The notes under the pieces: model-generated
Told to the model about the DNA's origin: nothing
What the model saw: only the letters and a program-made list of their open reading frames with translations
The model's database searches: none
Part shown: positions 1,971-50,679 of the stretch, piece after piece
Layout of the letters: each line of letters begins with the position of its first letter
Position numbering within the stretch: position 1 is the stretch's first letter
Program-made: the position numbers and the translations under genes
From: Akkermansiaceae bacterium
GTDB taxonomy: Bacteria; Verrucomicrobiota; Verrucomicrobiia; Verrucomicrobiales; Akkermansiaceae
Reading direction: 5' to 3'
Length of the DNA stretch: 56,223 bases
Assembly (NCBI GenBank): GCA_025354565.1
Contig: JANXMQ010000065.1
Location: 1 to 56,223, forward strand

Positions 1971-1978
1971 GGATGATG

Positions 1979-5197: not shown

Positions 5198-5202
5198 AGT
5201 GG

Positions 5203-7353: not shown

Positions 7354-7381
7354 GAGATGGTTAGCGGCGACATGGGTGAGC

Positions 7382-12985: not shown

Positions 12986-13750
12986 TCACTTCCACCATTT
13001 CCAGATGTTCCTTTCGCTCGGATGCGTGTCATAGTAGGATTGGCTCCGGTCCCCTTGCAATGTCTCAACATGTCCATCCAGAAACAGATAGAGAGCGGTC
13101 TTGCCGGTACGGCTGACGCGGTAGCGGGTGTTGACGTTGTTGGCGAAGGTAACACTATCAGTCGGACGCATTTCACCACCCACATGGTTGGTTTCAGCAC
13201 AAATGACGATCTTCGATTGGTCGGGAACGTTCGCGAGTCTGCCCACCCAATTTGAGTTGTTCAGATTGGCATTGTATGAAAACCAAAGAGGCCCGGGGAG
13301 TGAGCCGTTTGAAGTGTATCCGGCCCATGGTTTTGCCGCCTTGCTGCAAAAGATGCTATCGTTTCCCGGTCGGGTCTGGTAATTGTAAATGCTTGTAGGA
13401 TTGAAAACAGGTGGTGGCGGGAAAAAGCGATCAATCATTTCATGGAAAGCGTATCGGTTTCCAGCTCCCTGAACCGCTTCGGTACCGGGTATTCCATATC
13501 CAGGATAATTGATATTATTGTGGGGAATGATACCACTGTTTTCTTGCGCGATACTCATCAGTGCAACCGCCACTTGTCTGAACTTGCCAGTATCCACCGC
13601 TGCGATCGCCTGCTCCCGCGCACGGGTCAACACATTGAAACCGAGTGCCGCGAGCACGGCGATCATCACGATGACGACGAGTAGTTCAACCAACGTGAAT
13701 CCACCGACTCGGCCTTGGACACGTGATAAGGTGCTGGATTTGGATTTCAT
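12986..13750 (-). CDS. Type II pseudopilin-like protein with H-X9-DG signature
   Basis: A 254-residue protein. The N-terminus has the prepilin cleavage/methylation motif GGFTLVELLVVIVMIAVLAA: cleavage after Gly, Phe+1, Glu+5, then a hydrophobic helix. The C-terminal half carries a FLDGHVE block of the prepilin-type H-X9-DG domain frequent in Planctomycetes and Verrucomicrobia. Such proteins are assembled by type II secretion-like machines, or decorate the surface. It is the first gene of the third operon, directly downstream of operator A and just before the GH141-like gene, which suggests a role in exporting or tethering the operon's enzymes. That role is inference. Confidence 0.85.
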   Translation of the reverse strand: MKSKSSTLSRVQGRVGGFTLVELLVVIVMIAVLAALGFNVLTRAREQAIAAVDTGKFRQVAVALMSIAQENSGIIPHNNINYPGYGIPGTEAVQGAGNRYAFHEMIDRFFPPPPVFNPTSIYNYQTRPGNDSIFCSKAAKPWAGYTSNGSLPGPLWFSYNANLNNSNWVGRLANVPDQSKIVICAETNHVGGEMRPTDSVTFANNVNTRYRVSRTGKTALYLFLDGHVETLQGDRSQSYYDTHPSERNIWKWWK

Positions 13751-13856
13751 GGATTTTCGACCTTTAAAATTTTCTCTGGTACTGCGGCAAGCTCGCAGCT
13801 CGATTTAAGGATCAAAAAAAGATCAGCATGTTTCACTGCTTGCGGAAGGGGGGATA

Positions 13857-13884
13857 TTGCGTCGCAGGCGTATTGTTTTGCGTC
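13857..13884 (+). promoter_or_regulatory. Operator A: direct repeat TTGCGTC-N14-TTGCGTC
   Basis: TTGCGTC at 13857-13863 and again at 13878-13884, a 21-base period (two helical turns). It lies ~107 bases upstream of the pseudopilin start and between it and the regulator gene. The same arrangement and orientation occur at 17843-17870 and 33312-33339, each ahead of a minus-strand operon. AraC/XylR-type regulators bind direct half-sites with this spacing. Confidence 0.75.
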
Positions 13885-13907
13885 GCAATCCCTCCATCTT
13901 GCCAGAG

Positions 13908-15074
13908 TCACCTCCCATTCTCGCGCAGCCACGCAGCCGGGGATTTCCCGACGACGGTAAGGAACACTTGGTTGAGACGCCGGCGGTCGGCGAGACCACA
14001 TTGCTTGGCCACTTCTTGCAGGCTCGGCACTGGATTGGCATTCAGCAACTCCATGGCCCGGCGCACCCTGAGATTTGTCAAATACTCATGCATGGTCTGC
14101 CCCATCACATGACGAAACCTTCGCTCCAAGGTCACACGGGCCACTTGAACCCGGCTGCTGATATCAGCCACATTGATGTTTTCGAATCCGTGGGCCCTGA
14201 TGAATTCCACGGCGTGGGCCAAATCCCGGTCCTCGATGGCCATGGTTGCGGTGGACGCCCGTTCCACCACGCCCAAGGGAGGAACATTGATAAGCGGTTC
14301 ACGGGGTTGCTTATCCGCCATCAACTGATCCAGACAACTCACGGCGAAGCGAGCAAGCAACTCCTGATCCTCCTGCACCGCACTGAGCGGCACCCGGCAC
14401 AATGGCTGCACCTCGCTATGAAATCCGGTGGAGATCATCACCAGGTCACGCGGAATCTCATAGCCGGCCTCACGGCACAATTCCTGCAAAACCGGCGCAT
14501 CCCAATCATCCATCAGCACCAGCGCCGCAGGACGCGTGAGCGTGCTCACCCACTCCACAAACCGCCGCCGCTCGGCTTGGGCCAGCGGCTGGACCAAGTT
14601 TGGCATCGTGGTTTGCAGTTCGAAGGTTTTCAAGGAACCACCGCGAGCTTCAACCGCACGAACCAATGCATGATGTCGCTGATGGAGAAACCACCCACCC
14701 GGCACCAGCACACAGCCGAACCGACGGTAGCCTTTTTCTAACAAATGCTCGGCGGCCAGACGACCCACCGTTTCGTAATCGTGGCGCACCGTGGGGACTC
14801 CGGGTTTTTCCAGCCAAGAGGAGATATTGACGATCGGAAACTGGACTTTTTTCGCCTCGCAGAGCATCGCGGTGTTCATGATTCGCACGATGGCACCGTC
14901 ACAATCCAGTGTTCGCAGGAAACGGAATGCCTCCACCGAAGCCTCCGCACTGAAAACGAACTGCCAGTCCCCGCTCTCCTCAGCATGACGCGCGATCGCG
15001 GCATTATTGAGATTGTTGACCGACTGAAGAATCGGCAGACCAATCAGCGCAATTCGTTTCTTTTTAGACTTCAC
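13908..15074 (-). CDS. XylR-like AraC-family transcriptional regulator
   Basis: A 388-residue protein from a GTG start. Residues ~1-270 resemble the periplasmic-binding/LacI-type sensor domain of XylR proteins (RIALIGLPILQSVNNLNNAAIARHA; later PAALVLMDDWDAPVLQELCREAGYEIPRDLVMIS). The last ~100 residues are an AraC double helix-turn-helix (NVADISSRVQVARVTLERRF, ...MHEYLTNLRVRRAMELL, ...EVAKQCGLADRRRLNQVFLTVVGKSPAAWLRE). XylR-type proteins bind a sugar and activate through paired direct half-sites. This is the only regulator in the locus and three matching direct repeats lie nearby, so it is the likely controller of the whole cluster. It may be cotranscribed with GH105 (60-base gap). Confidence 0.9.
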   Translation of the reverse strand: MKSKKKRIALIGLPILQSVNNLNNAAIARHAEESGDWQFVFSAEASVEAFRFLRTLDCDGAIVRIMNTAMLCEAKKVQFPIVNISSWLEKPGVPTVRHDYETVGRLAAEHLLEKGYRRFGCVLVPGGWFLHQRHHALVRAVEARGGSLKTFELQTTMPNLVQPLAQAERRRFVEWVSTLTRPAALVLMDDWDAPVLQELCREAGYEIPRDLVMISTGFHSEVQPLCRVPLSAVQEDQELLARFAVSCLDQLMADKQPREPLINVPPLGVVERASTATMAIEDRDLAHAVEFIRAHGFENINVADISSRVQVARVTLERRFRHVMGQTMHEYLTNLRVRRAMELLNANPVPSLQEVAKQCGLADRRRLNQVFLTVVGKSPAAWLRENGR

Positions 15075-15134
15075 AAGTATTTATAGGGTCAGGAAACCGC
15101 CGCGCACTGCCGGGTTCGAGATGATTTCTCGAAA

Positions 15135-16928
15135 TCATGCAAACGCCGGCACAAGCTGCTTACCATTCGCAATGCCCGACAACGAGGAAATCAAAAGCTC
15201 GACCTCGATGCCAGCGAACAGCACGGCAAAAAGCCCGTGCGTGTCGTTGTCGTAGAACGGACGACTGTTGTAATAGGCCACATCCTCGCTGCACATCGTT
15301 CCCATGCAGATGTCGCGGACGTCACCATCCGCTTCCACCCGGGTCTCCAAGCCTTCCCAGCCCTTGATCACGACCTGGTGGAAGACGGATTCATCTAACC
15401 AGCCATGCCTCACACCGCGGGCCATCGCCATGACGAAAATGGCGGAGCCAGAGACTTCCAGCGGGGATTCCGGATGGTCGAGCACGTTCGGCCACAGCCC
15501 GCTTGCGTGCTGGAACCGCAGAAGCGAAGCACAGTGACGTCTAAAATGGTTGAGAATCGCCTGATAGTCTTGATGCCCTGGCGGTAGATGCGCCAACACC
15601 TCGCTCATTGCCCAGGAAGCCCATCCATTGCAGCGCGACCAATGAGGCAGTTTGGCAGGATTTCCAAAATAACGGGCATGCATGTAGAGTGCAGCCTCCT
15701 CGTCCCAAACCTGAGAATTAAACTCGAGCGTCTGGCGGGCGGCATCGTCGAGAAATCGCCGCCGCTCCGCCAAATCCTCGCTGTAGAGCGCGGCCTGCAC
15801 CAGAAACGGAATACCCATGAACATGTCGTCCACCCACGTCGTGAATTCCACCGGTGTGGTGCGCGTGAAAATCGAGGAACCGGGCAAGCGGATCTGCTCG
15901 TCGCGCGCATATCGGATCATGCGGCCGATCCACTTTTCGTAGCGACCTCGGTTGGGAAAATTTGGCTCGCATCGCAGGCGCTGAATGAAGGGTAGCGATG
16001 GGGCAAGTGTGAAGTCCAGCAACGGTGTATCGATGATGAAATGGTTCGCCGAATTCACGGCATGAAGGGTCTTTACCTGATATTCCACAAAGGGGATACC
16101 ATCCAGATGGAAGTCACAGAAGCGCGTCGCGTAATCGCTATAGCGAGGATCTCCTGAAACTTCCGCCAATGCCTGCATCGCCCAAGCGACACCGCCATTG
16201 TGATAGTTCCAACTGTCGTTGGTGCCCCACGGCAATGGATTGATCAATGCGCCTAGAATTTCCACTTTCGGAATCGTCCAAGTCACCGGGCCGTCAAGAC
16301 CGGGATACATCCGGCCGATGCAAAACTCCCGTTCAGGAGAATGCTGCAAATCCAAGCCCGTTCGCCCACCACCCACCCTAGGATTGGGAAACGGACCGGC
16401 CACGAGCCAGTTCGACAGCCCGGCCACCTGCCCGGAAATAGGATCAAGTCCCCCCAGCCCGATCTCGGGATGCCGCACCTCATCCATGACCACCGCGCCG
16501 TGCGCACTGGGTGGCTGTAGGAAGACCGCCCACTCACCACCTGCGGTTTCGGATTTGATCAGCAACGTATGACTGCCCGGTTTCAGGTGGATTTCAAATT
16601 GGTGGGACATCCTGATGCTGCGCTCGTCAAACTCCAGACGAATCGGGCGGTCGCCCGTTCGTTCATAGACCACCTTGCCATCAAGCCAGATCCGGCAGCC
16701 ATCATTGTGATCGATTTCCAATTTCAACCGCATCTCCTCCAGTGTTGTTAGGCGGGTCCATGCATAAGCCGTCGCAGGACGGCCAACACCGAAGGTCCGC
16801 CCGAAATCAACAAACTGCATCCGATCCAGCTTTCCCGTCACTTGGGACACTTCCAGACGGTACTCAAACGGGGTGTCCCGAATGACTTTGTCGCCGATTC
16901 GCCTTACGATTTCCAATGGCTTGCTCAT
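15135..16928 (-). CDS. GH105-like unsaturated glycuronyl hydrolase (cytoplasmic)
   Basis: A 597-residue protein with no signal peptide. Residues 1-~150 form a beta-sandwich of PA14/galactose-binding type (LKLEIDHNDGCRIWLDGKVVYE). The rest is an (alpha/alpha)6 barrel of the GH88/GH105 type: WNYHNGGVAWAMQAL, TTWVDDMFMGIPFL with the catalytic Asp near residue 367, WSRCNGWASWAMSEVL and SGSAIFVMAMARG. GH105 enzymes hydrate the 4,5-unsaturated uronic acid left by polysaccharide lyases, which fits the lyases encoded around it. Its start overlaps the epimerase stop by ATGA at 16925-16928, so the two are translationally coupled. Confidence 0.88.
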   Translation of the reverse strand: MSKPLEIVRRIGDKVIRDTPFEYRLEVSQVTGKLDRMQFVDFGRTFGVGRPATAYAWTRLTTLEEMRLKLEIDHNDGCRIWLDGKVVYERTGDRPIRLEFDERSIRMSHQFEIHLKPGSHTLLIKSETAGGEWAVFLQPPSAHGAVVMDEVRHPEIGLGGLDPISGQVAGLSNWLVAGPFPNPRVGGGRTGLDLQHSPEREFCIGRMYPGLDGPVTWTIPKVEILGALINPLPWGTNDSWNYHNGGVAWAMQALAEVSGDPRYSDYATRFCDFHLDGIPFVEYQVKTLHAVNSANHFIIDTPLLDFTLAPSLPFIQRLRCEPNFPNRGRYEKWIGRMIRYARDEQIRLPGSSIFTRTTPVEFTTWVDDMFMGIPFLVQAALYSEDLAERRRFLDDAARQTLEFNSQVWDEEAALYMHARYFGNPAKLPHWSRCNGWASWAMSEVLAHLPPGHQDYQAILNHFRRHCASLLRFQHASGLWPNVLDHPESPLEVSGSAIFVMAMARGVRHGWLDESVFHQVVIKGWEGLETRVEADGDVRDICMGTMCSEDVAYYNSRPFYDNDTHGLFAVLFAGIEVELLISSLSGIANGKQLVPAFA

Positions 16929-17806
16929 ATAACTGTGGTGAGTGTGTGGTCCCTGAGAAATTTTCCGCTAGAGACGATCTGGTCCGGTTGGATCTCCTCC
17001 AGCAAAGTGGCGATCCCGGGTCTGATGTTTGCCAACCAAGGCAGAATCAACCCGTAATCCAGCATTCCCTGCCCCGCTGGACGGATCACCAAATGATCGT
17101 GCTCAACAACAAAATCCTTCGCATGAACCACCGCAATCCGGCCACCGAACAATGCTAACGACTGCTGGATGATTTCCCGCTGAAACTCGAAATTCATGAT
17201 GCTCAGCAGATTTACCGGATCGAAAACCACTTGGAGGTGCGGCGAGGGAATCGCATCCAGCAACCGCCGCATCTTTTCCGGGGTGGAAATGACGTGCGGG
17301 GTCACCGCCTCGATGCCGACCACCACTCCGCAGCGCTCGGCCTCCGCCACCAGTTCCTCCATGCTGCCGAGCAATTCACAAAACGCCGCTTCGCCACCGT
17401 TGGCCGGGTGCGGCGAGTAATCGGCATTCAGCGAACCACTTTCCAAGGCCACAATGCCGCAGCCGAAATCCCGGGCATGACGCAGGTGCTCCTTGAATAG
17501 ACCGAGCAACGAATTTCTAACGTCCGGCACCGGATGAATCGGGTTGATATAACACCCGAGCACTTCGATTCCAATGCGGTGTTTGTCGAATGCCATGCAG
17601 ATTTCCGCGGCAAGGGCCGAAGTAAGAAGTCCCGGTTTCATCTCTAATCCCGCGATTGCTTTACCCAGCGCCAGTTGCACGCAATCCACTCCATGCGAGG
17701 CAACCCGAAGTGCGAGTTCCTCGACGGAAAAGCACCCGAGATCATGGGCGCGAAGGCCAAGTCGAAATTGCTGGACTGTGGTGTTAGCGGTCACTCTGAA
17801 AAGCAT
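16925..17806 (-). CDS. Sugar phosphate isomerase/epimerase (xylose isomerase-like TIM barrel)
   Basis: A 293-residue protein of the AP_endonuc_2/xylose-isomerase-like TIM-barrel superfamily. It has strand-ending acidic residues in the expected order: GIVALESGS, VVVGIEAVTPHV, LQVVFDPVNLL, IAVVHAKDFV, and a final ILPWLANIRPGIATLLEEIQPDQI. Members isomerise or epimerise keto-sugars, often in uronate or inositol catabolism. It is first in the second operon, 37 bases downstream of operator B and overlapping GH105 by four bases. It probably processes the monosaccharide released by GH105. The precise sugar is unknown. Confidence 0.85.
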   Translation of the reverse strand: MLFRVTANTTVQQFRLGLRAHDLGCFSVEELALRVASHGVDCVQLALGKAIAGLEMKPGLLTSALAAEICMAFDKHRIGIEVLGCYINPIHPVPDVRNSLLGLFKEHLRHARDFGCGIVALESGSLNADYSPHPANGGEAAFCELLGSMEELVAEAERCGVVVGIEAVTPHVISTPEKMRRLLDAIPSPHLQVVFDPVNLLSIMNFEFQREIIQQSLALFGGRIAVVHAKDFVVEHDHLVIRPAGQGMLDYGLILPWLANIRPGIATLLEEIQPDQIVSSGKFLRDHTLTTVI

Positions 17807-17842
17807 TGTTATCCAGATCCGTGAACTGCGGGAGGGGGATAG

Positions 17843-17870
17843 TTACGTCAATGGGGTGCACTTTTGCGTC
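17843..17870 (+). promoter_or_regulatory. Operator B: direct repeat TTACGTC-N14-TTGCGTC
   Basis: TTACGTC at 17843-17849 and TTGCGTC at 17864-17870, a 21-base period. It sits 37-64 bases upstream of the epimerase start and downstream of the lyase stop at 17894. One half-site differs by one base from operators A and C. The position overlaps where a -35 element would be expected, as for class II activation by AraC-family proteins. Confidence 0.75.
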
Positions 17871-17893
17871 GCACGCGGCGATTACATCCCCAC

Positions 17894-20503
17894 TCATTTT
17901 GCTGAAATCATGGTGCGACCCGAATCGGTCATTTTGACCCCGAAGACGCGCTTCACACCACCCACCTCAATCGTCAGCTCTGTCCGTGCCTCATTCCACG
18001 ACGTCGCCGGCAGCGTTTCGCCATGGCGATACGGGAAGAGCAGGATCTTGAAATCCGGCGCGACCGAGCGGCTGGCGATCACGAGACGTTTGTCGATGCC
18101 GAAAGAACGAGCCCCGGCCAAAGCCCCGGCTCGTGGCTCACGGTCCAGAGTGTCCTTGCGCTCGAATGTTTCCAACCGGAACGATGGCTTGGCTTGGTAA
18201 AGGTGCGTATCCTGCGGATCTTGCAGATCGAGCACCCTCACCAAAAGTTGCCGGTCTCCCTTTGCTGGAGTGAGAACCCCATCGTTATTTCGTTTCCCGT
18301 CCGCATCGCCGAGAATGATGTCGTTTCCTGCAATCGAGACGACCTCGGTGTTCACTCCTGTCTGCATGAGCCACTCGTAAAGCCGCTCATGCTCATCCTT
18401 TTGAATGTCATCCACCACGAGCAGCCATGGGTTTGCGCCCTGGCAAAAGACCGTGCTCCGGAACGCCCTGCGCACCGGATTGTGCGGTAGCCTCATCGGC
18501 CAGGAATCCTCATCCCAGAGCCTGGGATCGGTTTTCTCAAACCCTTTCCAAAAAGCCACCACGCCCGGCCGGGTGTCCCTCTCGTAAGGTCCCTCACCAA
18601 AGATTTTTTGAAATGTAGCGCTTTCCTGTGCATAGCTCTCCCAGCGCGGATACTTGAAACGGATAAAATTGTTAGGCTCCGCCTTGATCTGCTTCGGCCA
18701 CCACCAATCATAGGCGGACTTCACATCGACCGAAGCCATCACGAGATCCCCCGTCTTCGCTTCGTGAAGCCATTGTCCCGGTCCCGGCCAATAGCCCTGC
18801 CCCATGCCGTCGATCAGGATATTGTTGTGATGCCGCGTCTCGACCGAGCGAAAATTATCCTTCGCCCAAGCGCGTCCATGCGAAAAAAAAGTGAAACTCC
18901 CACGGTCCGCGTGCTCGTGGCTGGCACCCACGGAATCGATCCGACACTCCATCTGGAATGTCGTCGCATCCGCTTGCCAGCCGCTTCGTGCATTGAGCGA
19001 GCCGCGCAACGGATCATAGGCGTAATTTGCCAGGCCGAGCTTTGCCCCACCCTGATAATCGACCGCTCTACCAGCTTCGTCTTTCTGATAGTCAGATGCC
19101 CAGAGCATGGCCTCGATGATGTGAAAATTCCCCTTGAACGGGCTGAACCGATCCGGCACGGGAAGATGGCGGGTGGCTACGTCGTTCTTTACGTCCAGTT
19201 GATTGGCCGCGAGCGGTGTGCCCTCGGATTTGGTGACGAAACATTGCCAGAGAAAATCCGCCTTTGGATCCTGCGGGAAAAAATACCGCCACATTGCCAA
19301 GGTCCAAATTGTCGGCGGGCCGTCACCACCATCGCCATGACTGGTGAAATGATCCAGGCTCGGCTCCATGGATTGGAGATACCAGTCGAGCATCGCCCGG
19401 TGATGGCTGTGAACCAGCAGATTATCTCCCCTGCGCGTGGCCGCCACGAAAAACGGATTCGCCCACACCAGTCCGAACTGCGTATAACCAACGGCTTCGG
19501 TGGATTGTCCGGAAGGCGAAATCGCATAGGTCAGGTAGTCCTTGGCTATATCCACCCCGAGCTTGTAAACCCTCGGATCCGAGCCCTTCTCGCCTTCGAT
19601 CGCCAGCGCAAGCAAGGGCTGTTGGAGTCCCACCGCCACCCAGTTCCAGTTCCGGAAATGATGAGGCAGCCGCGCACCTAACCAAACCCGGCCATGCGTC
19701 ACTTGCGCAATCAAATCACGAACAGTCGCCCGCTGCGGCTCGGTCATGAATCCGTATGCGAAATCATAACCATAACCTAACAGGTGTCCGCCAACTCCCT
19801 CCCGCAGTCCCTGGCCCATCGCACCCGACCCCGTCACCGGCCCGGAAACTTTCGTCCGCCAGACGTCATCACTCATCGGCCCGGAAAACACCTCATCCAG
19901 ATTCGGACGGATGAGTTTCACATACGTCGCGATGGCCGATGCCGCCTTGCTCCCTTTCACAGGATCATCAAACACCATCGCGTCGAATGCCTCCATCACT
20001 AGAGCATAGATCCACGGCTGATAGTGTCCGATAGAGGGCGGGAATCCTTTCTTTTCAGCGACGAGAGCGAGCACACCCGCCTCATCGCCCGCTGCGAGAC
20101 GATCATAAAGTCCGCTGCTCCAATTCGCAGGATCGCGCAGCGCGGCATCCGTGCGGGATCGCAGCGTCACCAATAAAGCGCGCCCGGTTTCGGTGTGTTC
20201 AAGACGACGACGCAAATCCGGTAAATCGCCAGGGCTGAGCAAAATACGGGGATGAACTCCGGGTGGTGGCACTTTCGAAATCCGCTCTGTGGCAAACCCC
20301 GCCGTGTCGTATTTCACATCGAATTGCGGCGATGGCGGAAACGGATAAGAACCATTCAGGATCTCGTCCGCAGACAGCTCACCCGGCAACATTCGCGGGA
20401 CCGGCTCGGCAGCGGATACCAGCCCCAGTGATTGCAACACGACCGCGCCCACCAACGGGAACAGGGATTTGAATTTCAAGTTTTTGCAATCTAACGCATT
20501 CAT
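17894..20503 (-). CDS. Secreted heparinase II/III-like polysaccharide lyase
   Basis: An 869-residue protein with an N-terminal signal segment (LFPLVGAVVLQSLGLVSAAEP). It shares the VPPPGVHPRILLSPGDLPDLRRRL entry block with the two other lyases. It has an alpha/alpha-toroid core (HFRNWNWVAVGLQQPLLALAIEGEKG), then a beta-sandwich region with DSVGASHEHADRGSFTFFSHGRAWAKD, whose His-rich motif matches the metal and active-site region of this lyase class. It is the last gene of the first operon and overlaps the TIM-barrel gene by ATGA at 20500-20503. It likely cleaves the backbone outside the cytoplasm, leaving unsaturated ends for GH105. Confidence 0.8.
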   Translation of the reverse strand: MNALDCKNLKFKSLFPLVGAVVLQSLGLVSAAEPVPRMLPGELSADEILNGSYPFPPSPQFDVKYDTAGFATERISKVPPPGVHPRILLSPGDLPDLRRRLEHTETGRALLVTLRSRTDAALRDPANWSSGLYDRLAAGDEAGVLALVAEKKGFPPSIGHYQPWIYALVMEAFDAMVFDDPVKGSKAASAIATYVKLIRPNLDEVFSGPMSDDVWRTKVSGPVTGSGAMGQGLREGVGGHLLGYGYDFAYGFMTEPQRATVRDLIAQVTHGRVWLGARLPHHFRNWNWVAVGLQQPLLALAIEGEKGSDPRVYKLGVDIAKDYLTYAISPSGQSTEAVGYTQFGLVWANPFFVAATRRGDNLLVHSHHRAMLDWYLQSMEPSLDHFTSHGDGGDGPPTIWTLAMWRYFFPQDPKADFLWQCFVTKSEGTPLAANQLDVKNDVATRHLPVPDRFSPFKGNFHIIEAMLWASDYQKDEAGRAVDYQGGAKLGLANYAYDPLRGSLNARSGWQADATTFQMECRIDSVGASHEHADRGSFTFFSHGRAWAKDNFRSVETRHHNNILIDGMGQGYWPGPGQWLHEAKTGDLVMASVDVKSAYDWWWPKQIKAEPNNFIRFKYPRWESYAQESATFQKIFGEGPYERDTRPGVVAFWKGFEKTDPRLWDEDSWPMRLPHNPVRRAFRSTVFCQGANPWLLVVDDIQKDEHERLYEWLMQTGVNTEVVSIAGNDIILGDADGKRNNDGVLTPAKGDRQLLVRVLDLQDPQDTHLYQAKPSFRLETFERKDTLDREPRAGALAGARSFGIDKRLVIASRSVAPDFKILLFPYRHGETLPATSWNEARTELTIEVGGVKRVFGVKMTDSGRTMISAK

Positions 20504-22224
20504 AAGCTGGCAATAATTCTCCGGTAGTGGTTAATGGATTCATCAAGGCCCGCCACCGCAGATTCGCCGGGCAGACTGAAGTATTCGCCCCGATAGAGCG
20601 AGGAGCAAAGCGGATGATTGCCAAGCCGCCGATACTCCCGCCAAAGGGCATCATAGCGGTCGATTGCATCCGCTAGATCTGCCTTGTTGCAACCCTCGCT
20701 GCGATCCTCCCGGCAGCCAGCGATGAGGATCCGCCAGCCTTGATGAATGATATTGAACAGCAGACGCCCGTATTCGGCAGATACCTTGATGAATTCTCCA
20801 TCCGCGCAATGACTCCAATCGATCCCGTCCGCCAACGCCACAATCTCATCCCACAAAGCTACCGCTTCCGCCTTCTCTGCCAGCGCGGAATCGAGTTGGC
20901 CCTGTGATGCGAGCGTTGCCAGCACCATCCCCAGTTGATCGCCACCACCCAGCCGGTCATCGCGCATCCACAGGGCTGTCGGCAGCACGGATTCATCGAG
21001 CAGTCGATCGAACGCCTCGCATTGCCGGCCCGTCAATATCGCCCTAGCAGAAAGCAGACAGAGTTTCCGAAAACGCAAAACATCATCCCCATTCAAGCCC
21101 ATCCGCCGCTGGGCATATTCATTGAAAACCGCTTCCTCACTCCGCGACGGATCACGAATTAAGGATGCCAGAACATAGGCATTCAGATCCGGCCAGAACT
21201 CATTCTTCACATACGGCCCATACCATCCCCCTCCCCTCGACCAACTGTAAACCCCCACAACGAGCGGATCTATCAGCACATCGCCGAGACCGAGCCTCAC
21301 ACGGTTTTCCTCAAATCCGTTGATCACGCCATCCATCACATAGTTCGGATAAGCGCCCTTGCCTTCATATTCGCGCTGGCACTGCACCTCGATGATCTGG
21401 GGATGCCTGCCGCGCGTCAGACACTCATTCACCTTCACCCGCCTCCAGAAATCGAGGGCCGTATGTTTGATCGAAAAGACCAATTTGGGGTGCGGTTCGA
21501 TCCGATCAGTGACCTCCAGATAATGATCCAAGCGGGCGTGAAGTTTATCAGGAAAAATATCCCAGGTGCGGAACATCAGGGTCAACTCATGTCGATCACA
21601 GATTTCATCCCGCAAAAAACCGATCAGCTTCGCGTATGCACCGACCTGTGCGTCCGTCCATGCCTGCTCCGGCTCCAGGTGATGCAGCGTTTCTGCGTAA
21701 AGATAGGTCGCGGTCCACGCGGAACCCATCCGCGGAATCGGTCCATTTCCAAGGTGGAACGGCGTATCCATCAGATAGGTCTCACCGACGCGGATGATGT
21801 ATCCGTCCACTTCGGGAAATCGTGCCGTGAGTTCATCGAACAGAATGCGGTGCAGCTCTAGAGTCCGCGGCCGGTCCAACAGAATCCGGCCGGTCTCCGG
21901 GTCACAGATCTCGTCCCGGAAGTGCTCCGCTATCCGCTTCGGCAGCACGAATAGATCCACGTGATAGAAAACCATCAGCCCCTTGGCCTTCGCCGCCTTG
22001 ATTTCACGCTCGATACCCGGTGTGAATTGATCCAGCCATGCGCGGTCCGGTGATCCTAACGGGAATGCGTCCACGCCGGTCGCCGCGAAACTGGCCACGC
22101 AGTTGATGTGTTTGAACACCTGACCGTTGAAACCGTAATCCGCTAGATGCCCGGGATCGAGGAACTTTGATTCAAAAGGCGCTTCACCGGGATTGTGATG
22201 CACCATGTCGAGAATGTATCGCAT
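20500..22224 (-). CDS. Cytoplasmic TIM-barrel glycoside hydrolase-like protein (alpha-glucuronidase-like)
   Basis: I use the ATG at 22222-22224 (MRYILDMVHHNPGEAPFES), 7 bases after the upstream esterase stop, because residues before it are low-complexity shadow. The 574-residue product has no signal peptide. The core (GLMVFYHVDLFVLPKRIA, PEVDGYIIRVGETY, LVFSIKHTALDFWRR, IIEVQCQREYEGKGAYPNY) resembles the TIM barrels of GH67/GH115-type alpha-glucuronidases and of uncharacterised Verrucomicrobial glycosidases. A helical C-terminal domain follows. It could remove a glucuronic acid side group from imported oligosaccharides. Family assignment is tentative and no catalytic residue is asserted. Confidence 0.6.
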   Translation of the reverse strand: MRYILDMVHHNPGEAPFESKFLDPGHLADYGFNGQVFKHINCVASFAATGVDAFPLGSPDRAWLDQFTPGIEREIKAAKAKGLMVFYHVDLFVLPKRIAEHFRDEICDPETGRILLDRPRTLELHRILFDELTARFPEVDGYIIRVGETYLMDTPFHLGNGPIPRMGSAWTATYLYAETLHHLEPEQAWTDAQVGAYAKLIGFLRDEICDRHELTLMFRTWDIFPDKLHARLDHYLEVTDRIEPHPKLVFSIKHTALDFWRRVKVNECLTRGRHPQIIEVQCQREYEGKGAYPNYVMDGVINGFEENRVRLGLGDVLIDPLVVGVYSWSRGGGWYGPYVKNEFWPDLNAYVLASLIRDPSRSEEAVFNEYAQRRMGLNGDDVLRFRKLCLLSARAILTGRQCEAFDRLLDESVLPTALWMRDDRLGGGDQLGMVLATLASQGQLDSALAEKAEAVALWDEIVALADGIDWSHCADGEFIKVSAEYGRLLFNIIHQGWRILIAGCREDRSEGCNKADLADAIDRYDALWREYRRLGNHPLCSSLYRGEYFSLPGESAVAGLDESINHYRRIIASL

Positions 22225-22231
22225 GCGCGTT

Positions 22232-23941: not shown

Positions 23942-23960
23942 ATACTTATGTTAGGTTGGA

Positions 23961-26609: not shown

Positions 26610-28213
26610 GTTGGTTGGTATTTAAAGTAATCAAATGCCGCCCATGCGGAGCGGTCGGATAGATCCTGGCAGCACACGCCCCAGAAGGTGCCGGTGAAAT
26701 TGCTGTGCGGTGAGACCCAGTCGCCGAGCATCGTCGCTTCGAACACACGATCCACCACGCTCCATGCAACGCCATCTAACGACCAGGCGAAGCGGAGTTG
26801 GTCGAAATCGTTTTCCATGCGTAGATAAATCCTGTCACCGGCATCAAGAGGCAGCTCGGCCACCTCGCAACGGCTGGTCCTGGTGTTCTCGGATGAAATG
26901 ACGCCCAGCTTGATCAGGCCCTCACCCGCCGAAGTGATGCGGAAATAATGATAGTGCAAGCGGTCATAGTAAGCGATCAATCCGGCGGTTTGTTTGAAGT
27001 TTTCCGGCTTGAAAGAAATGCATGTCTCCGCGCTTGCCTTGAAATGCTGAAGCCGCCGCGCGACAAGGCTTTGGTCATAACAGGAAGCAAGCGAATCTCT
27101 GCCACGCAGGCTGAGCCAGCCCTTGCGAATCGTTAGAGAACACCAATCTTCGGTAACCGGCTCGCGGAGTGTTTGGAAATGGCAAGACAACTCCGGCCCG
27201 TCGAAGTCGTCGTGCAGCACATCCTGCGGCCAAGGCTGCGGCGGTAGATCAACCTCGACGGCATCCTGCGGCGAGTTGTCGCCATGTGCCATCCGCGGCC
27301 AACCTTCGTCATCCCAGCGGAGTTTCTGGATGCAGGTCTCGCGGCCGAGCGTAGCGGACTTGTTTTCCTCGCGGTCCAACACCATGCGACCGGTGCGTTG
27401 GAGCGGACGGTGGCACAAGTGAACGGTGAACCACTCGCCCGCCTGAGTCTCGACGAAACAACCGTGTCCGGTGGATTTGAGATTCAAGTGATCCTTTTGA
27501 AAAGCGGTTAGGATCGGGTTGTCGGGGTGAAGCTCATACGGCCCTAACAAATTCCTGCTGCGGCATACGCTGATGGCGTGGCGCATTGCGGTGCCGCCCT
27601 CCGCGGTGATGAGATAATACCAACCGTCCTTCCTGAGAAGATGCGGCCCTTCGGTAATGCCGATGGCGCTTCCCTGCCAGATTTTCACCGGCTTCCCAAC
27701 GAGTTTCATCGTATCCCCATCGAACTCCTGCAGAATAATACCGTCGAACCGGACGGACGTGAACGCCTCGCCCATCTGCATCTGAACGATGTATTTCCGG
27801 CCGTCTTCATCATGAAACAAGCTCGGGTCAAAGCCGCTGGAATTAAGGAATACCGGCTCGCTCCATGGACCCTCAATGTGCTCGGCAGTGACAAGAAAAT
27901 TAGGGGTGTCCATCACCACACCGCCCATGTGGTGGCGAACGTTGGTATAGACGAGCCAGAATTTCCCGTCCGCGTGAGTGAGACAAGGAGCCCAAGCGCC
28001 GCCGGAGTTCTGGCAGCCCTTCAGGTCGAGCTGCGAGACGCGATCAAGCGCCCGGCCCAGTAGCCGCCAATTTACAAGATCCCGCGAATGGTGGATCTGC
28101 ACTCCGGGAAACCACTCGAAGGTAGAGGTCGCGATGTAATAATCATCGCCCACACGGCAAATCGAAGGATCGGGGTTGAATCCCGTTAGAATAGGATTAT
28201 GCAGGGAGTTCAT
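26606..28213 (-). CDS. GH43 (subfamily 12-like) beta-xylosidase / alpha-L-arabinofuranosidase
   Basis: A 535-residue protein without signal peptide. The first ~320 residues are a five-bladed GH43 propeller: NPILTGFNPDPSICRVGDDY with catalytic base Asp15, YIATSTFEWFPGVQIHHSRD, GAWAPCLTHADGKFWLVYTN, and SGFDPSLFHDEDGRKYIVQM with the pKa-modulating Asp. The C-terminal ~200 residues are the beta-sandwich typical of XynB-like enzymes (TCISFKPENFKQTAGLIAYY). The enzyme removes terminal xylose or arabinose from oligosaccharides in the cytoplasm, in line with uptake by the upstream SSS transporter. This is one of the firmest calls in the locus. Confidence 0.93.
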   Translation of the reverse strand: MNSLHNPILTGFNPDPSICRVGDDYYIATSTFEWFPGVQIHHSRDLVNWRLLGRALDRVSQLDLKGCQNSGGAWAPCLTHADGKFWLVYTNVRHHMGGVVMDTPNFLVTAEHIEGPWSEPVFLNSSGFDPSLFHDEDGRKYIVQMQMGEAFTSVRFDGIILQEFDGDTMKLVGKPVKIWQGSAIGITEGPHLLRKDGWYYLITAEGGTAMRHAISVCRSRNLLGPYELHPDNPILTAFQKDHLNLKSTGHGCFVETQAGEWFTVHLCHRPLQRTGRMVLDREENKSATLGRETCIQKLRWDDEGWPRMAHGDNSPQDAVEVDLPPQPWPQDVLHDDFDGPELSCHFQTLREPVTEDWCSLTIRKGWLSLRGRDSLASCYDQSLVARRLQHFKASAETCISFKPENFKQTAGLIAYYDRLHYHYFRITSAGEGLIKLGVISSENTRTSRCEVAELPLDAGDRIYLRMENDFDQLRFAWSLDGVAWSVVDRVFEATMLGDWVSPHSNFTGTFWGVCCQDLSDRSAWAAFDYFKYQPT

Positions 28214-28306
28214 CGGATTACGATTGAGGTTCGCCAGATATAGAATGAAGCACCTGCGCTGGTAACAACCCGATTGAGAATACCGAGAGTTGAACTATCG
28301 TAATAG

Positions 28307-30586
28307 TCATGATTTTAAACAGATAGATATGGATTTCGGAAAGGATGCCAATTTTGTCTCCGCCGCCATAAGAAGCACCGTTGGACACCCGAACAGCGCG
28401 TTTTCCGACATGGGGCTCCCAGTTTCCTGGGTGCTCTCCGCCAGCACCCTAACGACTGCGGTGACGGAAGTTGGGTTGGTTAGCCTGACGACCAATTCCG
28501 TTTCATCATCGGAAACAATCTCCGCCTTGATGTGATCGAATGCAACGACCAGCGAGCGATCCGGCTGCACGTATAAGCCGGGAATCTCGATGGTGGTGAG
28601 CATCAACGAGGTTTCCGCCCAAGTCGTCATGCGCAATGTCTCGCCGATGCGCTCGGGCCCTTCCCAGTCAGTCATGTTCACACGCTCACACATGTGGCCC
28701 GGTTTGGCATCGCCCAACGGCCTGAGCGAATGGGGAAGATATTGCGGCAAGCCGCTGGCGATGTCGTATAGCAGATCGAGAGGGAAACGGTCGCCGGTCG
28801 CGCGGAACAACTTGAACAAGCCAAGCCCGGACAGCGTGCACAGACCAGGAGCCGAGTGTTTGTTCTGCGTGTTCGCATAAACCGAGCCGTTAGTGCGGAT
28901 AGCGGCCTTACCAAACATCGAGTCTAACGGAAATTTAAAATCATACGAAACCACCCAGGTGGAAAACTGCCGCGTTACCTCGCCGGCCCGCGCCAGCCAT
29001 TTCGCATCGCCAGTGGCTTCATGCAGTGCGATGTAAGACTCGATCAAGGCCGCCCACGATTCCGAATCCGGATTCTGCAAGGCATCGCCGGGGCCACCGC
29101 AACTGAGGCCCCTGCGGGTAAAATTTTGATAGAAATACTCCGCCGACTGATGCGCGACGTCCTGATAATCGGGCCGATCAAACCACGCCGCCGCCAACAC
29201 CAGCGCCGCCGGGGCAAGCGCCGCACTGGTCGAGCCTCCAACGCGGATCTCGCCGGTGAGTGAATCGACAAACTGTCCGAACTGGCCGTTTTCACGCCAG
29301 AGTTTCACAAACGCATCGCAGACTTGGCGGGTTCCATCGCACCACGCGGACTTCACCTCAATCCCGAGTTTCTCCATCAGCATGAATTGTTTGATGATGA
29401 AAAACACGGCGTCGGCGCTCTTGCGGATCAGGTGCCAATTGGCGGTGTGGGGTTTGCGAATATCGCCGCCAAACCACTCGGTGCCATTTCGGCCGCTATC
29501 CCAGAAGAATCCGGACGGGGCGATGCCGTTGGGAAACAGCCAGTCAAAATTGCGCAGCACATTCGCACGCGTCTCATCACTGCCTGCGAAGAGCAACGGA
29601 TAAGTGCTGATCATGCCGCCGGTCCAGCCGATCTGCCAATCCTGCAGGAAATTCTGCCGCGGACCTACCGAGTAGTAGCCATACTCCGGAACAAAATTAT
29701 CACGATTGAATTTCTCCTCCTGTTGTGCCATGCAAGCTGAGAATGGTAGTAATTTGTTAACTTCCATGCCAACGGGCTTGCGGATCTCTGCATACTTATC
29801 GAAAAGCGTCTGCAATTCGCTGGCCGGAAAGCCATGCACTCTGAATGAGATACGCACCTCATCGCCCGCCTTGAAATTTGCGGGCACATCCGTTGATGGC
29901 GCACGCATGTCGCACATCCGGTAACTATAAAGCTCCCTCACCAGCGGCGTGGTGATAGAAAGCGTCGCCTGGCTGCGATCGTGATTTTCCTCGATGTTGA
30001 GACCGTAGTCACCCAGCAGGTTTCCCTGATCGGTTAGCAGCCACAATCCGCGCCTGCATCCCTCTGCATGATAGCCGATGGACGGCAGCGCCATGCTGCC
30101 GCTGCGCTCCTGAATGCGCGACGGTCCGGCTGTGTCATTAAGCTTCGGTATGTCGGTGACGATGATTGGCTTGTCCGGGCCGATATCATCCACAAACCAT
30201 AACTTGGGCGAATAAGGAATACGGCGGGAAAGGAAGCGATTGCCGTTATAGGCGGCAGCAGGCATCAATACATAGTTTTCCGCACTCCAACCGGAAACAT
30301 CGAGATCCACTGAGAGCGCCGCACTAGAAATGACACCGGACTCGCAACGAAAACGGACCTCGAACTCCATCGACGCGTCACGATCTGGTAGATTTGCGGC
30401 ATGCACAACGACACTCCAGCTTGATCCGCACAGATCGATAGGATGATCACAGCTATCCAACTGCACCCGAGCCTCGTTGATCCGCAGGTTGAAACGATCG
30501 GCTGCAAATTGGTTGATCCGGGCGTGGAGCGTCACACCCTGCTCCGCGAGCCATGAGGAAAAAACAATGTTAGAGGCCCGACTCAT
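28307..30586 (-). CDS. Six-hairpin glycosidase-like protein, family not identified
   Basis: The ATG at 30584-30586 overlaps the transporter stop (ATGA) and precedes MSRASNIVFSSWLAEQGV; longer starts would run into the transporter. About 759 residues with no signal peptide. Residues ~1-260 are beta-rich. From ~270 helical repeats suggest an (alpha/alpha)6 barrel (QDWQIGWTGGMISTYPLLFA, SESWAALIESYIALHEATGD, KWLARAGEVTRQFSTWVVSY), followed by a short C-terminal beta region. I do not recognise a named GH family. Position between importer and GH43 makes cytoplasmic oligosaccharide hydrolysis likely. A 93-base gap without obvious features separates it from GH43. Confidence 0.7.
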   Translation of the reverse strand: MSRASNIVFSSWLAEQGVTLHARINQFAADRFNLRINEARVQLDSCDHPIDLCGSSWSVVVHAANLPDRDASMEFEVRFRCESGVISSAALSVDLDVSGWSAENYVLMPAAAYNGNRFLSRRIPYSPKLWFVDDIGPDKPIIVTDIPKLNDTAGPSRIQERSGSMALPSIGYHAEGCRRGLWLLTDQGNLLGDYGLNIEENHDRSQATLSITTPLVRELYSYRMCDMRAPSTDVPANFKAGDEVRISFRVHGFPASELQTLFDKYAEIRKPVGMEVNKLLPFSACMAQQEEKFNRDNFVPEYGYYSVGPRQNFLQDWQIGWTGGMISTYPLLFAGSDETRANVLRNFDWLFPNGIAPSGFFWDSGRNGTEWFGGDIRKPHTANWHLIRKSADAVFFIIKQFMLMEKLGIEVKSAWCDGTRQVCDAFVKLWRENGQFGQFVDSLTGEIRVGGSTSAALAPAALVLAAAWFDRPDYQDVAHQSAEYFYQNFTRRGLSCGGPGDALQNPDSESWAALIESYIALHEATGDAKWLARAGEVTRQFSTWVVSYDFKFPLDSMFGKAAIRTNGSVYANTQNKHSAPGLCTLSGLGLFKLFRATGDRFPLDLLYDIASGLPQYLPHSLRPLGDAKPGHMCERVNMTDWEGPERIGETLRMTTWAETSLMLTTIEIPGLYVQPDRSLVVAFDHIKAEIVSDDETELVVRLTNPTSVTAVVRVLAESTQETGSPMSENALFGCPTVLLMAAETKLASFPKSISICLKS

Positions 30587-33126
30587 GATTTTGACGGAGT
30601 GAAGATGGTCAAACCCGTCAGATCCTTGCCTTGCTTGGAGAACAAGCTGAAGCAATAGCCGGAAACCATACACGAGAGGATCGCAATGGGAATCAATGTC
30701 TGCCAGTGCAGCGGGGTGTAAAACTTCACCCACGCCGTGACCAGAATGCTGGTGATCGCGCCCGCCACGGCGCCAAAGCCGTTAGCCCGCCGGGTGAACA
30801 TGCCCAACGAGAAAACCCCGACAATACCACCGCCGAGCAACGCACTGATAATCGACCACGTCACCATCAGCGACTTGAGGTTCAGCGTGGCGAGCAACAT
30901 CGCGATAGCCAGCGCCACAAGACCCACGATCGTGGAGGTGAGGCGCAGGATAAACACCCGCCGCTTGTCTGTGGCATCCGGCCTGGAGCGCATGTAGAAA
31001 TCCTCGGTGAACACCGTGGCCGAGCTGTTCATGCTACTCGCGACCGTGGTCATGGCGGAGGCAAAAATCGCGGCGATCACCATGCCCACAACGCCATGCG
31101 GCAGCGCCTGGATGACGAACAGCGGCACGATCTTGTCGTTCTGCGCGAGCGGATCGAGCTGAGCCGGATTGGCATGGAAATAACCGAAAATCGCAATACC
31201 AAGGACGTTGGTGACCACCGAAATCAGAATACTGCAGGCCGCACTCATCGCAGCTACACGACGCACTTCCTTTTGTGGCGAAGAAAACACGCGTTGAATC
31301 GTCGGTTGATCGCCCGCCTGCATGATAGTTCCCGCCATGAAGGTAGTCACAAAAAGAATCCACACCGCAGGGATGGTTGGGTCCCACGTCATCAGCGCGA
31401 AGTCGAATTTGTGGTGGGCAAGACCGATTTTTACGAACTCCCGAGTCCCGCCCGGGACTGCGAAAATACACACGCCGATCATGCACAGTGGCGCGAAGAA
31501 TTTCAGCAGCCCTTGAAATACATCGGTATAAACCACTGCCTGAAACCCACCAAAGGCGGTGTAAATTGTGGTGACCGCCCACATCATCAACACGCTGACA
31601 AACACATTGATGCCGGTGGTCGCGGAAATCGCCAGCGCTGGAAGCACGAGCACCACGCTGGCACGGCCGAAGGTCTGGAAAACGATGCACTGCGCACTGG
31701 CAATGAGCCGTAGCGTGCGGTTGAAACGGCGTTCGAGATATTCGTAGGTCGAGGTGATTTCCATCCGCCGTAGCAGTGGGAAGATCAACCGGGACTGCAC
31801 ATAATACGCGAGGATGTAGATGATGATCGGAAACAAGAAGACGAGGTTGGTGGCAAACGCCAGTGCCGGAATGGCCATGAAACTGATCGCACTCGCACCG
31901 GTGGCGAACATGCTGATGCCAGCCACCCACCACGGCACGTTGCGCCCCGCCAAAGAGAAGTCCGCACTCGATTTTTGACGCCGCGACGCGAAGATGCCGA
32001 TTGACGCGATAAATAGAAAATAACCGGCGATGACCGCGTAATCGACCCACGACAGATTACGGGCTGTGCGGACGATTTTGAACTCATTCAGAGTGACCTG
32101 GCGCGCCTCTGATCTAACACCAAGCATCAACAACTTGCTATCAAGCGCCGACGTTTGCGGCACCGCCAGCACCGTGCGCAGTCCCAGCGGCTGATTGAAA
32201 TCGCACCAGGCGTCGGTGATGGTGTGATATAAGAATGGAACACCACCGGTTAGTTCTTCTGCCTTTGGAAACAGTGCCGCAGGGGCGGTCTCGCCGCCAC
32301 CGGCAAGCGCCACGGCTGACTGGCCCACCGGAAACGCGACGCCGCCCACACAAGGGCGCGGCAGATCCGCCACGCGCGTCCATCCATCACGCAACGAGGC
32401 TTCCGGCGGCTTCAAGCGGAACAACCAGGCATCGCGCGAAACTGAATTTACCGCGCCGCCGTTACCCGCGACCAGACCGCCAAAGACACAAAGCGCGTCA
32501 TACTGGGCAGTTACCGCAGCAAACGCCCGACCCGGTCCCGGTAGTGGCGTGGCCGCGCACCATTGCGCCCCTGAGTCCTCCAGATTCAAAATCCAGACGG
32601 CATTTTCAAATACCGGTGGATCCACGGATGACAATCCTCCGAAAACCAACATCTTGCTTCCCATCACTGCCGCTCCCGCACCGGCCAGCGGTTTGGGCAG
32701 TTTAGGCAATTCTTCCATCGTCACCTGATCGCCAGTTAGAACCAGCTTGCTCACCCGGTCGGTCGGTCTGGCATCGATCACCCCCCCCGCACAGACCATC
32801 GCGTTTCCCCACCGGACGGCCGCGCTCCACGCCGGAACAAGCGCCCCGGTCCGCTTCCACCCGGACCCTGCGCCACTCATCGGCAAGGTCCAAACGGCAA
32901 GTGCCGGGTCACCGATCGCCGCGCGACCACCCACAACCAAGACATTCTTGTCCGCAGAGGCAAAGCCTCCAGCGAGATCCGCCTCCATTGCCGGAAACTG
33001 GCCTTGGAGAAGTTCAAAATACTGTGCTTTTGTCGTCTTTTCCTGATTCTGCGCCGCAGTCAGGGAGGAAAGGCTGATCGCGGCAAGCACGTTAAGAAAC
33101 AGGTTGATAGACCGGAAGACACTCAT
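30583..33126 (-). CDS. Sodium:solute symporter with N-terminal Kelch/mutarotase-like propeller
   Basis: Start chosen at the ATG of MSVFRSINLFLNVLAAISLSSLTAAQ, a signal peptide; 847 residues. Residues ~30-350 contain Kelch-type repeats (VLVVGGRAAIG, MLVFGGLSSVDPP, LCVFGGLVAGNGG, VALAGGGE), like the cyclically permuted sialate-mutarotase propellers. From ~375 a complete SSS-family transporter follows (DYAVIAGYFLFIASIGIFAS, FSLAGRNVPWWVAGISMFATG, then about a dozen hydrophobic segments). Propeller-SSS fusions are known from Bacteroidetes and PVC bacteria. The propeller would sit outside the membrane and may epimerise or bind the sugar before sodium-driven import. It is first in the first operon, behind operator C. 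Confidence 0.9.
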   Translation of the reverse strand: MSVFRSINLFLNVLAAISLSSLTAAQNQEKTTKAQYFELLQGQFPAMEADLAGGFASADKNVLVVGGRAAIGDPALAVWTLPMSGAGSGWKRTGALVPAWSAAVRWGNAMVCAGGVIDARPTDRVSKLVLTGDQVTMEELPKLPKPLAGAGAAVMGSKMLVFGGLSSVDPPVFENAVWILNLEDSGAQWCAATPLPGPGRAFAAVTAQYDALCVFGGLVAGNGGAVNSVSRDAWLFRLKPPEASLRDGWTRVADLPRPCVGGVAFPVGQSAVALAGGGETAPAALFPKAEELTGGVPFLYHTITDAWCDFNQPLGLRTVLAVPQTSALDSKLLMLGVRSEARQVTLNEFKIVRTARNLSWVDYAVIAGYFLFIASIGIFASRRQKSSADFSLAGRNVPWWVAGISMFATGASAISFMAIPALAFATNLVFLFPIIIYILAYYVQSRLIFPLLRRMEITSTYEYLERRFNRTLRLIASAQCIVFQTFGRASVVLVLPALAISATTGINVFVSVLMMWAVTTIYTAFGGFQAVVYTDVFQGLLKFFAPLCMIGVCIFAVPGGTREFVKIGLAHHKFDFALMTWDPTIPAVWILFVTTFMAGTIMQAGDQPTIQRVFSSPQKEVRRVAAMSAACSILISVVTNVLGIAIFGYFHANPAQLDPLAQNDKIVPLFVIQALPHGVVGMVIAAIFASAMTTVASSMNSSATVFTEDFYMRSRPDATDKRRVFILRLTSTIVGLVALAIAMLLATLNLKSLMVTWSIISALLGGGIVGVFSLGMFTRRANGFGAVAGAITSILVTAWVKFYTPLHWQTLIPIAILSCMVSGYCFSLFSKQGKDLTGLTIFTPSKS

Positions 33127-33311
33127 TATGATGGATTTGAATTCTGGGTTTGCTCGAAGTTCGGGAGTGCCCCAGTCACCGCTCAGCAGCTTCTCTAACG
33201 ATCTGTCGGGAAAACCAAATCGGGTGGTTGATGTGCCAAGAGCTTCCCTATTCAGCAATGTGGCTTGGCAAGTATTCAACCGATTAAAAACGACCTGTTA
33301 CAGGGGTAAAA

Positions 33312-33339
33312 TTGCGTCAAGAAGGGGCATTTTTGCGTC
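33312..33339 (+). promoter_or_regulatory. Operator C: direct repeat TTGCGTC-N14-TTGCGTC
   Basis: TTGCGTC at 33312-33318 and at 33333-33339, a 21-base period, 186 bases upstream of the transporter start. It matches operators A and B in half-site, spacing and orientation. The A/T run before the second half-site (CATTTTTGCGTC) is also shared with the other two (GTTTTGCGTC, CTTTTGCGTC). Confidence 0.75.
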
Positions 33340-36975: not shown

Positions 36976-36989
36976 ACGAACAAGCCGCC

Positions 36990-40069: not shown

Positions 40070-40113
40070 AAACTTCCAACGGATCACTACACACTTCCAA
40101 CTCTTCCCTACCA

Positions 40114-48401: not shown

Positions 48402-48426
48402 GCTTGGTTGCCAGCAACTTTATCGG

Positions 48427-50667: not shown

Positions 50668-50679
50668 GGTCGTGGACGT

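Follow-up and report, generated by a model that had tools for sequence, protein, structure and literature searches.

Three blocks of minus-strand genes in a draft genome of an Akkermansiaceae bacterium are each preceded by the same short tandem repeat, which raises the question whether one regulator governs all three. An earlier note on this DNA had described the pattern TTRCGTC-N14-TTGCGTC, assigned it to a XylR-like AraC protein encoded in the locus and proposed a complete single-regulator regulon including a pseudopilin. The window, i.e. the whole stretch of 56,223 nucleotides analysed here, corresponds to the entire contig C126 of the assembly (5,125,412 bases in 257 contigs). A pattern scan of the window returned exact matches at 13857-13884, 17843-17870 and 33312-33339, all in identical orientation; dinucleotide shuffling gives a chance expectation of 0.01 matches, and none of 100 shuffled sequences contained three or more. 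According to the ORF positions, each repeat occupies the gap ahead of one minus-strand block. The first, located between the regulator gene and the pseudopilin operon, precedes the pseudopilin (start 13750), the second an operon comprising a TIM-barrel protein, a family 88 glycosyl hydrolase (GH88) and the regulator, and the third a seven-gene operon beginning with a kelch-SSF symporter fusion (Table 1); operons 1 and 3 are delimited by spacing and strand. Judged from sequence, the repeats are, with a probability of about 90% for the explanation as a whole, operators of the XylR-like regulator.

Instead of the many copies unrelated to sugar operons that would speak against such a regulon, a scan of the whole draft genome yielded three matches, all of them in the window at the sugar locus. 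Allowing up to two mismatches, with TTRCGTC on both sides, gave 73 matches in the genome compared to 140 for the reversed control pattern, and loose matches are thus noise.

Read on the gene strand (minus), the signal is GACGYAA...GACGYAA. The heptamer of the earlier description is real but constitutes only the first box (A-box) of each half-site, and a C-rich second box (B-box) follows each time. The complete operator consists of two tandem half-sites of about 17 bp, 21 bp apart, in which GACGYAA is followed by a C-run. In 21 aligned sites of relatives, the A-box of the first half-site is trailed by AA, while the B-box reads CCS in the first and CCCC in the second half-site. The window sites fit this alignment although none was used in building it; in operator 1, a C-rich B-box lies behind each of the A-boxes at 13884-13878 and 13863-13857.

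For genome searches, a sequence-only model (R1) was trained on 21 sites from six relatives (G020, G031, G034, G036, G038 and G072) and on no window site. Excluded from training were 7-bp arrays, matches in genomes lacking the regulator except those of G020, the sites of G055, a duplicate site on contig C72 of G038, and contig C86 of G038. In its own genome, R1 recovered the window sites with 36.6, 33.4 and 31.6 bits (E 1.7e-8 to 6.9e-7), and the next match listed scored 12.9 bits (E 0.53; 150 of 2572 first-look candidates scored). The regulon may thus be called complete for the draft genome, within its 95.4% completeness and the portion of candidates scored. A matrix derived from relatives only likewise detected the three sites, and no further position in the window exceeded 8 bits; a control of 324 kb, made up of reversed sequence, contained one match above this value. 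Single-mismatch matches elsewhere in the genome were rejected: those in C49 and C196 have no B-box, and the one at C43:33968 has an exact-pattern counterpart in G027, where the conserved neighbouring sequence is apparently coding.

Table 1. Predicted regulatory sites and annotated proteins in the window, and operators beside sibling regulators in other genomes
Feature	Position	Strand	Sequence, score or basis
Operator 1, pseudopilin operon	13847..13884	-	GACGCAAAACAATACGCCTGC + GACGCAATATCCCCCCT; 45.7 bits matrix, 36.6 bits R1, E=1.7e-8
Operator 2, TIM-barrel / GH88 / regulator operon	17833..17870	-	GACGCAAAAGTGCACCCCATT + GACGTAACTATCCCCCT; 41.0 bits matrix, 31.6 bits R1
Operator 3, kelch-SSF symporter operon	33302..33339	-	GACGCAAAAATGCCCCTTCTT + GACGCAATTTTACCCCT; 42.3 bits matrix, 33.4 bits R1
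Predicted -10 hexamer of operator 2, AACAAT	17805..17810	-	pooled position-locked signal
Predicted -10 hexamer of operator 3, TTGAAT	33274..33279	-	position-locked signal pooled over 33 operators
XylR-like regulator, LacI/periplasmic-binding-protein-like sensor and AraC-type DNA-binding domain	13908..15074	-	Pfam, homology to E. coli XylR, model
Operon 1, pseudopilin, first gene behind operator 1	12986..13750	-	Pfam N_methyl PF07963 and NCBIfam TIGR02532, both above cut-off
Operon 1, beta-helix	10657-13200	-	
Operon 1, no family found	7382-10606	-	
Operon 1, weak alpha-L-fucosidase match	5203-7416	-	below cut-off
Operon 1, laminin-G-like	1979-5206	-	
Operon 1, GDSL lipase/acylhydrolase	588-2009	-	
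Operon 2, sugar isomerase/epimerase-like TIM barrel, first gene	16925..17806	-	Pfam AP_endonuc_2; likely start GTG 17794
Operon 2, glycosyl hydrolase family 88	15135..16928	-	Pfam PF07470, E=4.2e-57
Operon 3 (17894..33126), kelch + Na+:solute symporter fusion	30583-33126	-	
Operon 3, no family	28307-30733	-	
Operon 3, GH43 with GH43_C2	26606-28213	-	weak AbnA match
Operon 3, pectate-lyase-like	23961-26609	-	
Operon 3, three proteins without family	17894-23941	-	
DndB-like proteins	36969-38069, 43646-44662	+	
Abi_2 protein	39383-40069	+	
PAPS-reductase-domain protein	39958-41724	+	
AAA_23 ATPase	41721-43649	+	
HNH protein	44350-45603	+	
Class B operators	beside regulators of G005 (4 sites), G064 and G060 (1 each)		
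Class C operators	beside regulator of G020 C727		3 sites, one weak
Class D operators	just upstream of regulators G036 C87, G020 C295 and G038 C29, reading away		second site in G038

The regulator displays the domain architecture of XylR, with Peripla_BP_3 at residues 108-275 and HTH_18 at residues 306-384 (Pfam). Among solved structures, that of E. coli XylR (4fe4/4fe7; E=5.5e-23) is the closest to it, the homology extending over residues 76-380 and hence both domains. An AlphaFold model (mean pLDDT 83.2) best matches apo XylR (4fe4_A; Z 26.6, rmsd 7.9, 370 aligned), and the next matches listed are LacI-type sensors, which reach Z 25.3 at most and align across some 260 residues. None of the 50 structure matches listed is an AraC-type DNA complex, which is uninformative since matches to the sensor domain fill the list. 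The model places the recognition helices at approximately 313-324 and 364-375; the motif DRRRLNQVF at the second helix is unchanged in all six orthologues. The term XylR-like is best taken to denote kinship and fold, not xylose as ligand, and family annotation named no xylose-catabolism gene in the block. In line with the earlier note, this protein is the only regulator recognised in the locus: a Pfam scan of 16 block proteins detected a DNA-binding domain in this one alone.

Orthologues of the regulator (E<=1e-60) occur in six of 145 genomes, namely its own and five of the same genus, with 77-91% identity; four related loci originate from Akkermansiaceae or Verrucomicrobiaceae metagenome bins. 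Matches of R1 (E<=1e-3) were found in eight of the 145 genomes, six of which provided the training sites, so that their matches arise partly by construction. They comprise all six genomes with the regulator and two of the 139 without, G020, which is only 59% complete, and G055. Outside the training set, R1 detected the three sites of the window genome and gave no match in 137 of the 138 other untrained genomes, the exception being G055. The numbers of matches per genome (own genome 3, G031 10, G034 7, G038 5, G072 4, G036 2, G020 3, G055 3) are lower bounds, because two weaker sites of G036 were missed at E<=1e-3, one behind the regulator gene (31.8 bits by matrix) and one at the pseudopilin (26.9 bits). 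In G031 all ten matches lie within about 86 kb on the contig of the regulator; in G038 no operator was found behind the regulator gene. Two operators of G038, on C19 (L083 8379) and C72 (L084 8209), are identical, have diverged flanks and are situated near contig ends.

The three sites of G055 (L094, L095 and L165) are weaker, with E values from 1.3e-5 to 2.6e-4; one precedes an alpha-L-fucosidase gene and two are near contig ends. No regulator orthologue was found in this 96% complete genome, even with the DNA-binding domain alone as query. The regulator may have been lost or not assembled, or another protein may bind these sites. In a pattern search of the 145 genomes conducted without regard to the regulator, 30 genomes contained repeats, a good part of which were 7-bp arrays. 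The 7-mer TTGCGTC forms tandem arrays in G037 C107, G029 C370, G059 C113, G035 C170 and G127 C1; the array unit has the letters of the A-box and three units amount to 21 bp, perhaps by coincidence.

Comparison of the upstream regions in relatives, a check that the earlier note had suggested, revealed boxes 78-100% identical, with upstream flanks at chance level (25%). For operator 2, six orthologous promoters including that of the window share 100% and 90% identity in the A-boxes and 92% in the second B-box, compared to 25% in the upstream and 27-38% in the downstream flank. Operator 3 is retained ahead of kelch-SSF homologues in five other genomes, three with genes of 53-81% identity and two with genes of about 36%. 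The window promoter and the three closer ones display 93% identity in the A-boxes, 88% in the B-box, 25% upstream and 31% downstream. On addition of G036 and G020, where the gene behind the site is the kelch-SSF homologue of about 36% identity (tblastn) and the 60 downstream bases are identical in both, these values become 95%, 78%, 25% and 37-38%. The contrast between boxes and flanks strongly indicates that selection has acted on the boxes. Confined to the locus, conserved in their boxes and present wherever the regulator was found, the repeats behave as the operator set of this regulator would.

The first gene behind operator 1 encodes a protein with the GFTLVE cleavage/methylation motif of a prepilin N-terminus. 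It is one among many in its genome, which contains 18 matches to the prepilin signal. Orthologues were detected in four of seven further genomes searched (G072, 77% identical; G038, 60%; G036; and G034, where the match covers only residues 127-219). All five detected genes, including that of the window with its operator at 13884, have an operator upstream, also at changed genomic positions, which bears out the proposed inclusion of the pseudopilin in the regulon. In G038 the operator is located on a different contig (C41:895, 39 bits), and in G072, the closest relative (C79:6112-6151, L085/L195), the half-sites are spaced by 20 bp instead of 21 bp (E 2.7e-4). Weaker operators precede the gene in G036 (C170, 26.9 bits) and G034 (C53, 23.7 bits), the next-best score in both loci being 3.4. 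That operator and pseudopilin stay together although the gene has moved is the best evidence for its membership. In G031, with the regulator and ten sites, no pseudopilin orthologue was found. Upstream of the pseudopilin operators in L196 and L198, inspection by eye suggests that the preceding sequences end in what we take to be a PEP-CTERM-like tail.

The position of the operators relative to a promoter was examined by pooling 33 of them, which remained of 39 matrix hits after removal of the three sites of G055 and of those that scored low, were truncated at an end or occurred in duplicate. A hexamer resembling TATAAT is most pronounced at offset 61 (61-66) from the operator start, with on average 2.61 of six matches compared to an overall average of 1.56 and a maximum of 2.24 in 300 dinucleotide shuffles. 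No TTGACA (-35) peak was observed over the same 33 operators. Single -10 hexamers match at two to four of six positions, that of operator 1 being weak, and a strict TAnnnT test of 34 sites gave no enrichment (at most 4 sites per 5-base window, below the shuffles); individual -10 hexamers are therefore poor. With the usual 17-bp spacer, the -35 position would fall directly behind the CCCC box. A fixed -10 distance without a -35 signal suits an activator, and we infer from this geometry a class II activation.

Two of the listed gene starts are probably to be revised. The predicted -10 hexamer of operator 3 coincides with the TTG (33279) taken as start in the ORF listing, and the in-frame ATG at 33126 opens a signal-peptide-like sequence. 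The TTG start is probably wrong and the kelch-SSF gene probably begins at ATG 33126, which would place operator 3 about 186 bp upstream of its gene. At operator 2, ATG 17806 overlaps the predicted -10 hexamer and none of five orthologues has a methionine at the matching place, making GTG 17794 the likelier start of the TIM-barrel gene.

A Pfam match is absent from five of the 16 block proteins, and others have weak or general matches only. The GH88 protein, presumably of the unsaturated uronyl hydrolase type, together with the GH43 and pectate-lyase-like proteins and the SSF symporter suggests a polysaccharide bearing uronate and pentose as substrate. Adjoining the sugar locus, a Dnd-like defence island occupies 36969-45603 on the plus strand (Table 1). 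Beyond it, on the minus strand (46152-52985), lies what may be a second restriction-like system, composed of a methyltransferase that has HNH and S24-peptidase-like matches, another AAA_23 ATPase and a protein of the ResIII type.

The observed operator structure, locus confinement, conservation, co-occurrence and pooled -10 position would be accounted for by a regulator dimer that places one AraC-type DNA-binding domain on each tandem half-site. Spaced by 21 bp, i.e. two helical turns, the half-sites would face the same side of the double helix. In proteins of the AraC/MarA type the first helix-turn-helix (HTH) reads the 5' box; by this assignment of helices to boxes, the first HTH would contact GACGYAA and the arginine-rich second (DRRRLNQVF) the C-run. 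In the inducer-bound state, the proximal half-site just upstream of the would-be -35 position would help RNA polymerase to bind, as in class II activation. The regulon would consist of three operons: one for the transporter and hydrolases, one for the isomerase, GH88 and the regulator, and one in which surface proteins and enzymes join the pseudopilin. The regulator, under its own operator 2, would be subject to feedback, and the inducer is probably a breakdown sugar of the uronate- and pentose-containing polysaccharide.

Could the three sites serve a different protein, such as a global carbon regulator or an unlinked AraC-type factor? G055, which has the signal and no detected orthologue, would fit such an assignment, as would the several block genes without family assignment. 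However, the sites are confined to the locus of the XylR-like regulator, the sole DNA-binding protein recognised in the block, they accompany it in six of six genomes compared to two of 139 without it, and their tandem 21-bp form is that expected for the XylR-like class, so that a regulator encoded elsewhere appears very improbable. An origin as a dispersed minisatellite or mobile repeat, which came to lie before operons by chance, deserves hardly any credence. It derives some appeal from the 7-bp TTGCGTC arrays of related genomes, which also satisfy the pattern, but no such array exists in the sequence around the window sites, whose upstream flanks are unrelated (26% identical) while the boxes are fixed, and all three stand in gaps preceding operons in one orientation.

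A different matter is the sign of regulation. The XylR-like protein might bind as proposed but repress, with the inducer releasing it as is often the case for LacI-family sensors; its sensor half is LacI-like, and for E. coli XylR repression is reported at a single promoter, araC (PMC7567609). Published accounts describe E. coli XylR as an activator at xylA, xylF and xylE and a Vibrio homologue as an activator as well (PMC6375646, PMC7567609, PMC12125979). Moreover, the predicted -10 follows the operators at the distance of an activator, with no -35 signal, and repression is accordingly considered unlikely.

Direct binding by the XylR-like regulator, the reading preferred here, agrees by analogy with what published work reports for its class, as the earlier note had assumed. 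XylR sites come as neighbouring pairs (PMC6375646, PMC7567609), those at xylF three bases apart (PMC7567609), and E. coli XylR thus resembles the window regulator and its predicted operators in two-domain architecture and site arrangement; the targets differ, being polysaccharide operons in the window, and so does the motif, GACGYAA with a C-run as opposed to the AT-rich motifs that a Vibrio report likens to those of XylR (PMC12125979). The E. coli xylA-xylF gap provides a weak control: the best 17-bp tandem has period 21 with 12 of 17 identities, compared to 11 of 17 at periods 14, 25 and 27, and with a 14-bp window period 25 exceeds period 21 by 11 to 10.

In Vibrio, a XylR homologue is reported to bind a motif of two direct repeats upstream of several operons in gel shifts (PMC12125979). 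The beta-1,3-xylan locus of this protein, XylRA, carries several two-repeat operators and encodes its regulator, as the locus described here appears to do. XylRA differs in being gammaproteobacterial, in having xylose as effector, and in binding a motif called AT-rich, as opposed to GACGYAA with a C-run (PMC12125979). Bacteroides AraC-type HTCS regulators have predicted direct repeats averaging 21 bp, likewise ahead of polysaccharide operons, with motifs reconstructed for 16 of 36 paralogues; they are hybrid sensor kinases with a periplasmic sensor, in contrast to the LacI-like sensor fused to a DNA-binding domain in the window regulator (PMC3878776). A link between polysaccharides and pseudopilins in Verrucomicrobiota is indicated by excerpts on Verruconatronum alginivorum, where alginate causes over-expression of a pseudopilin and the genome contains 67 homologues of a pulG-like pseudopilin (PMC13274419); these excerpts tie no operator or regulator to it. 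No paper joining Verrucomicrobi*, XylR and AraC was found in the open-licence literature. While paired direct half-sites of AraC-type regulators are known, the proposed regulator-operator pair, the pseudopilin link and the sibling classes described below are new.

Sibling XylR-like regulators were examined at 28 loci, those aligned being 22-28% identical. When recurrent tandem repeats were sought de novo across entire loci, period-3 repeats of coding sequence dominated the result. With the search limited to non-coding stretches and L103 left out due to its overlap with L192, period 21 was the commonest among recurrent tandem repeats, with 84 distinct pairs compared to between 1 and 27 at each other period in the range 16-27, a number that overstates generality, as nine pairs derive from repeats in L186 and many from within class B. 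In L186 (7958-8975; G060 C17), GGAGTAGGCGCGTCTCCGCGCC-type repeats flank a short ORF that encodes an MPNHLHLLF motif and that we take to be REP-associated-transposase-like. Seven of the 28 loci possess 21-bp tandem operators of their own, which fall into three further classes (B, C and D; Table 1) by search strings drawn from the same loci; at the remaining 21 no tandem operator was recognised.

In all four classes the first A-box contains CGCAAAA, replaced by CGTAAAA in part of the sites of class A, to which the window operators belong, whereas the second box differs. In parallel, the first recognition helix R..[LM]E.RF is common to 13 regulators of classes A-D, and the second varies with class: DRRRLNQVF in A, HPEYMNRLF or HPEYMSRLF in B and C, and SPEYMASVF in D. 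This parallel suggests a division of labour between the two HTHs, the shared box falling to the first and the variable box to the second. We tentatively envisage, at somewhat below even odds, a lineage-wide radiation of XylR-like regulators with a shared 21-bp grammar, in which second box and second HTH change together, the arginine-rich helix going with the C-run and the PEYM helices with TTCAATG or other boxes, and each locus recruits a specific pseudopilin.

For the candidate regulator, these results define a precise operator and turn a largely unannotated gene block into one putative regulon. A specific pseudopilin is tied to a specific polysaccharide response by conserved DNA and not by gene order, and searches with the operator can reveal additional regulon members on other contigs or in other genomes, while the sibling classes provide a starting point for working out how AraC-type domains encode recognition. 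Should the proposed radiation be true, a single helix and a single box would largely account for orthogonality among the numerous polysaccharide loci within a genome, and the pseudopilin would be a substrate-specific part of the machinery, one for each locus that recruited it.
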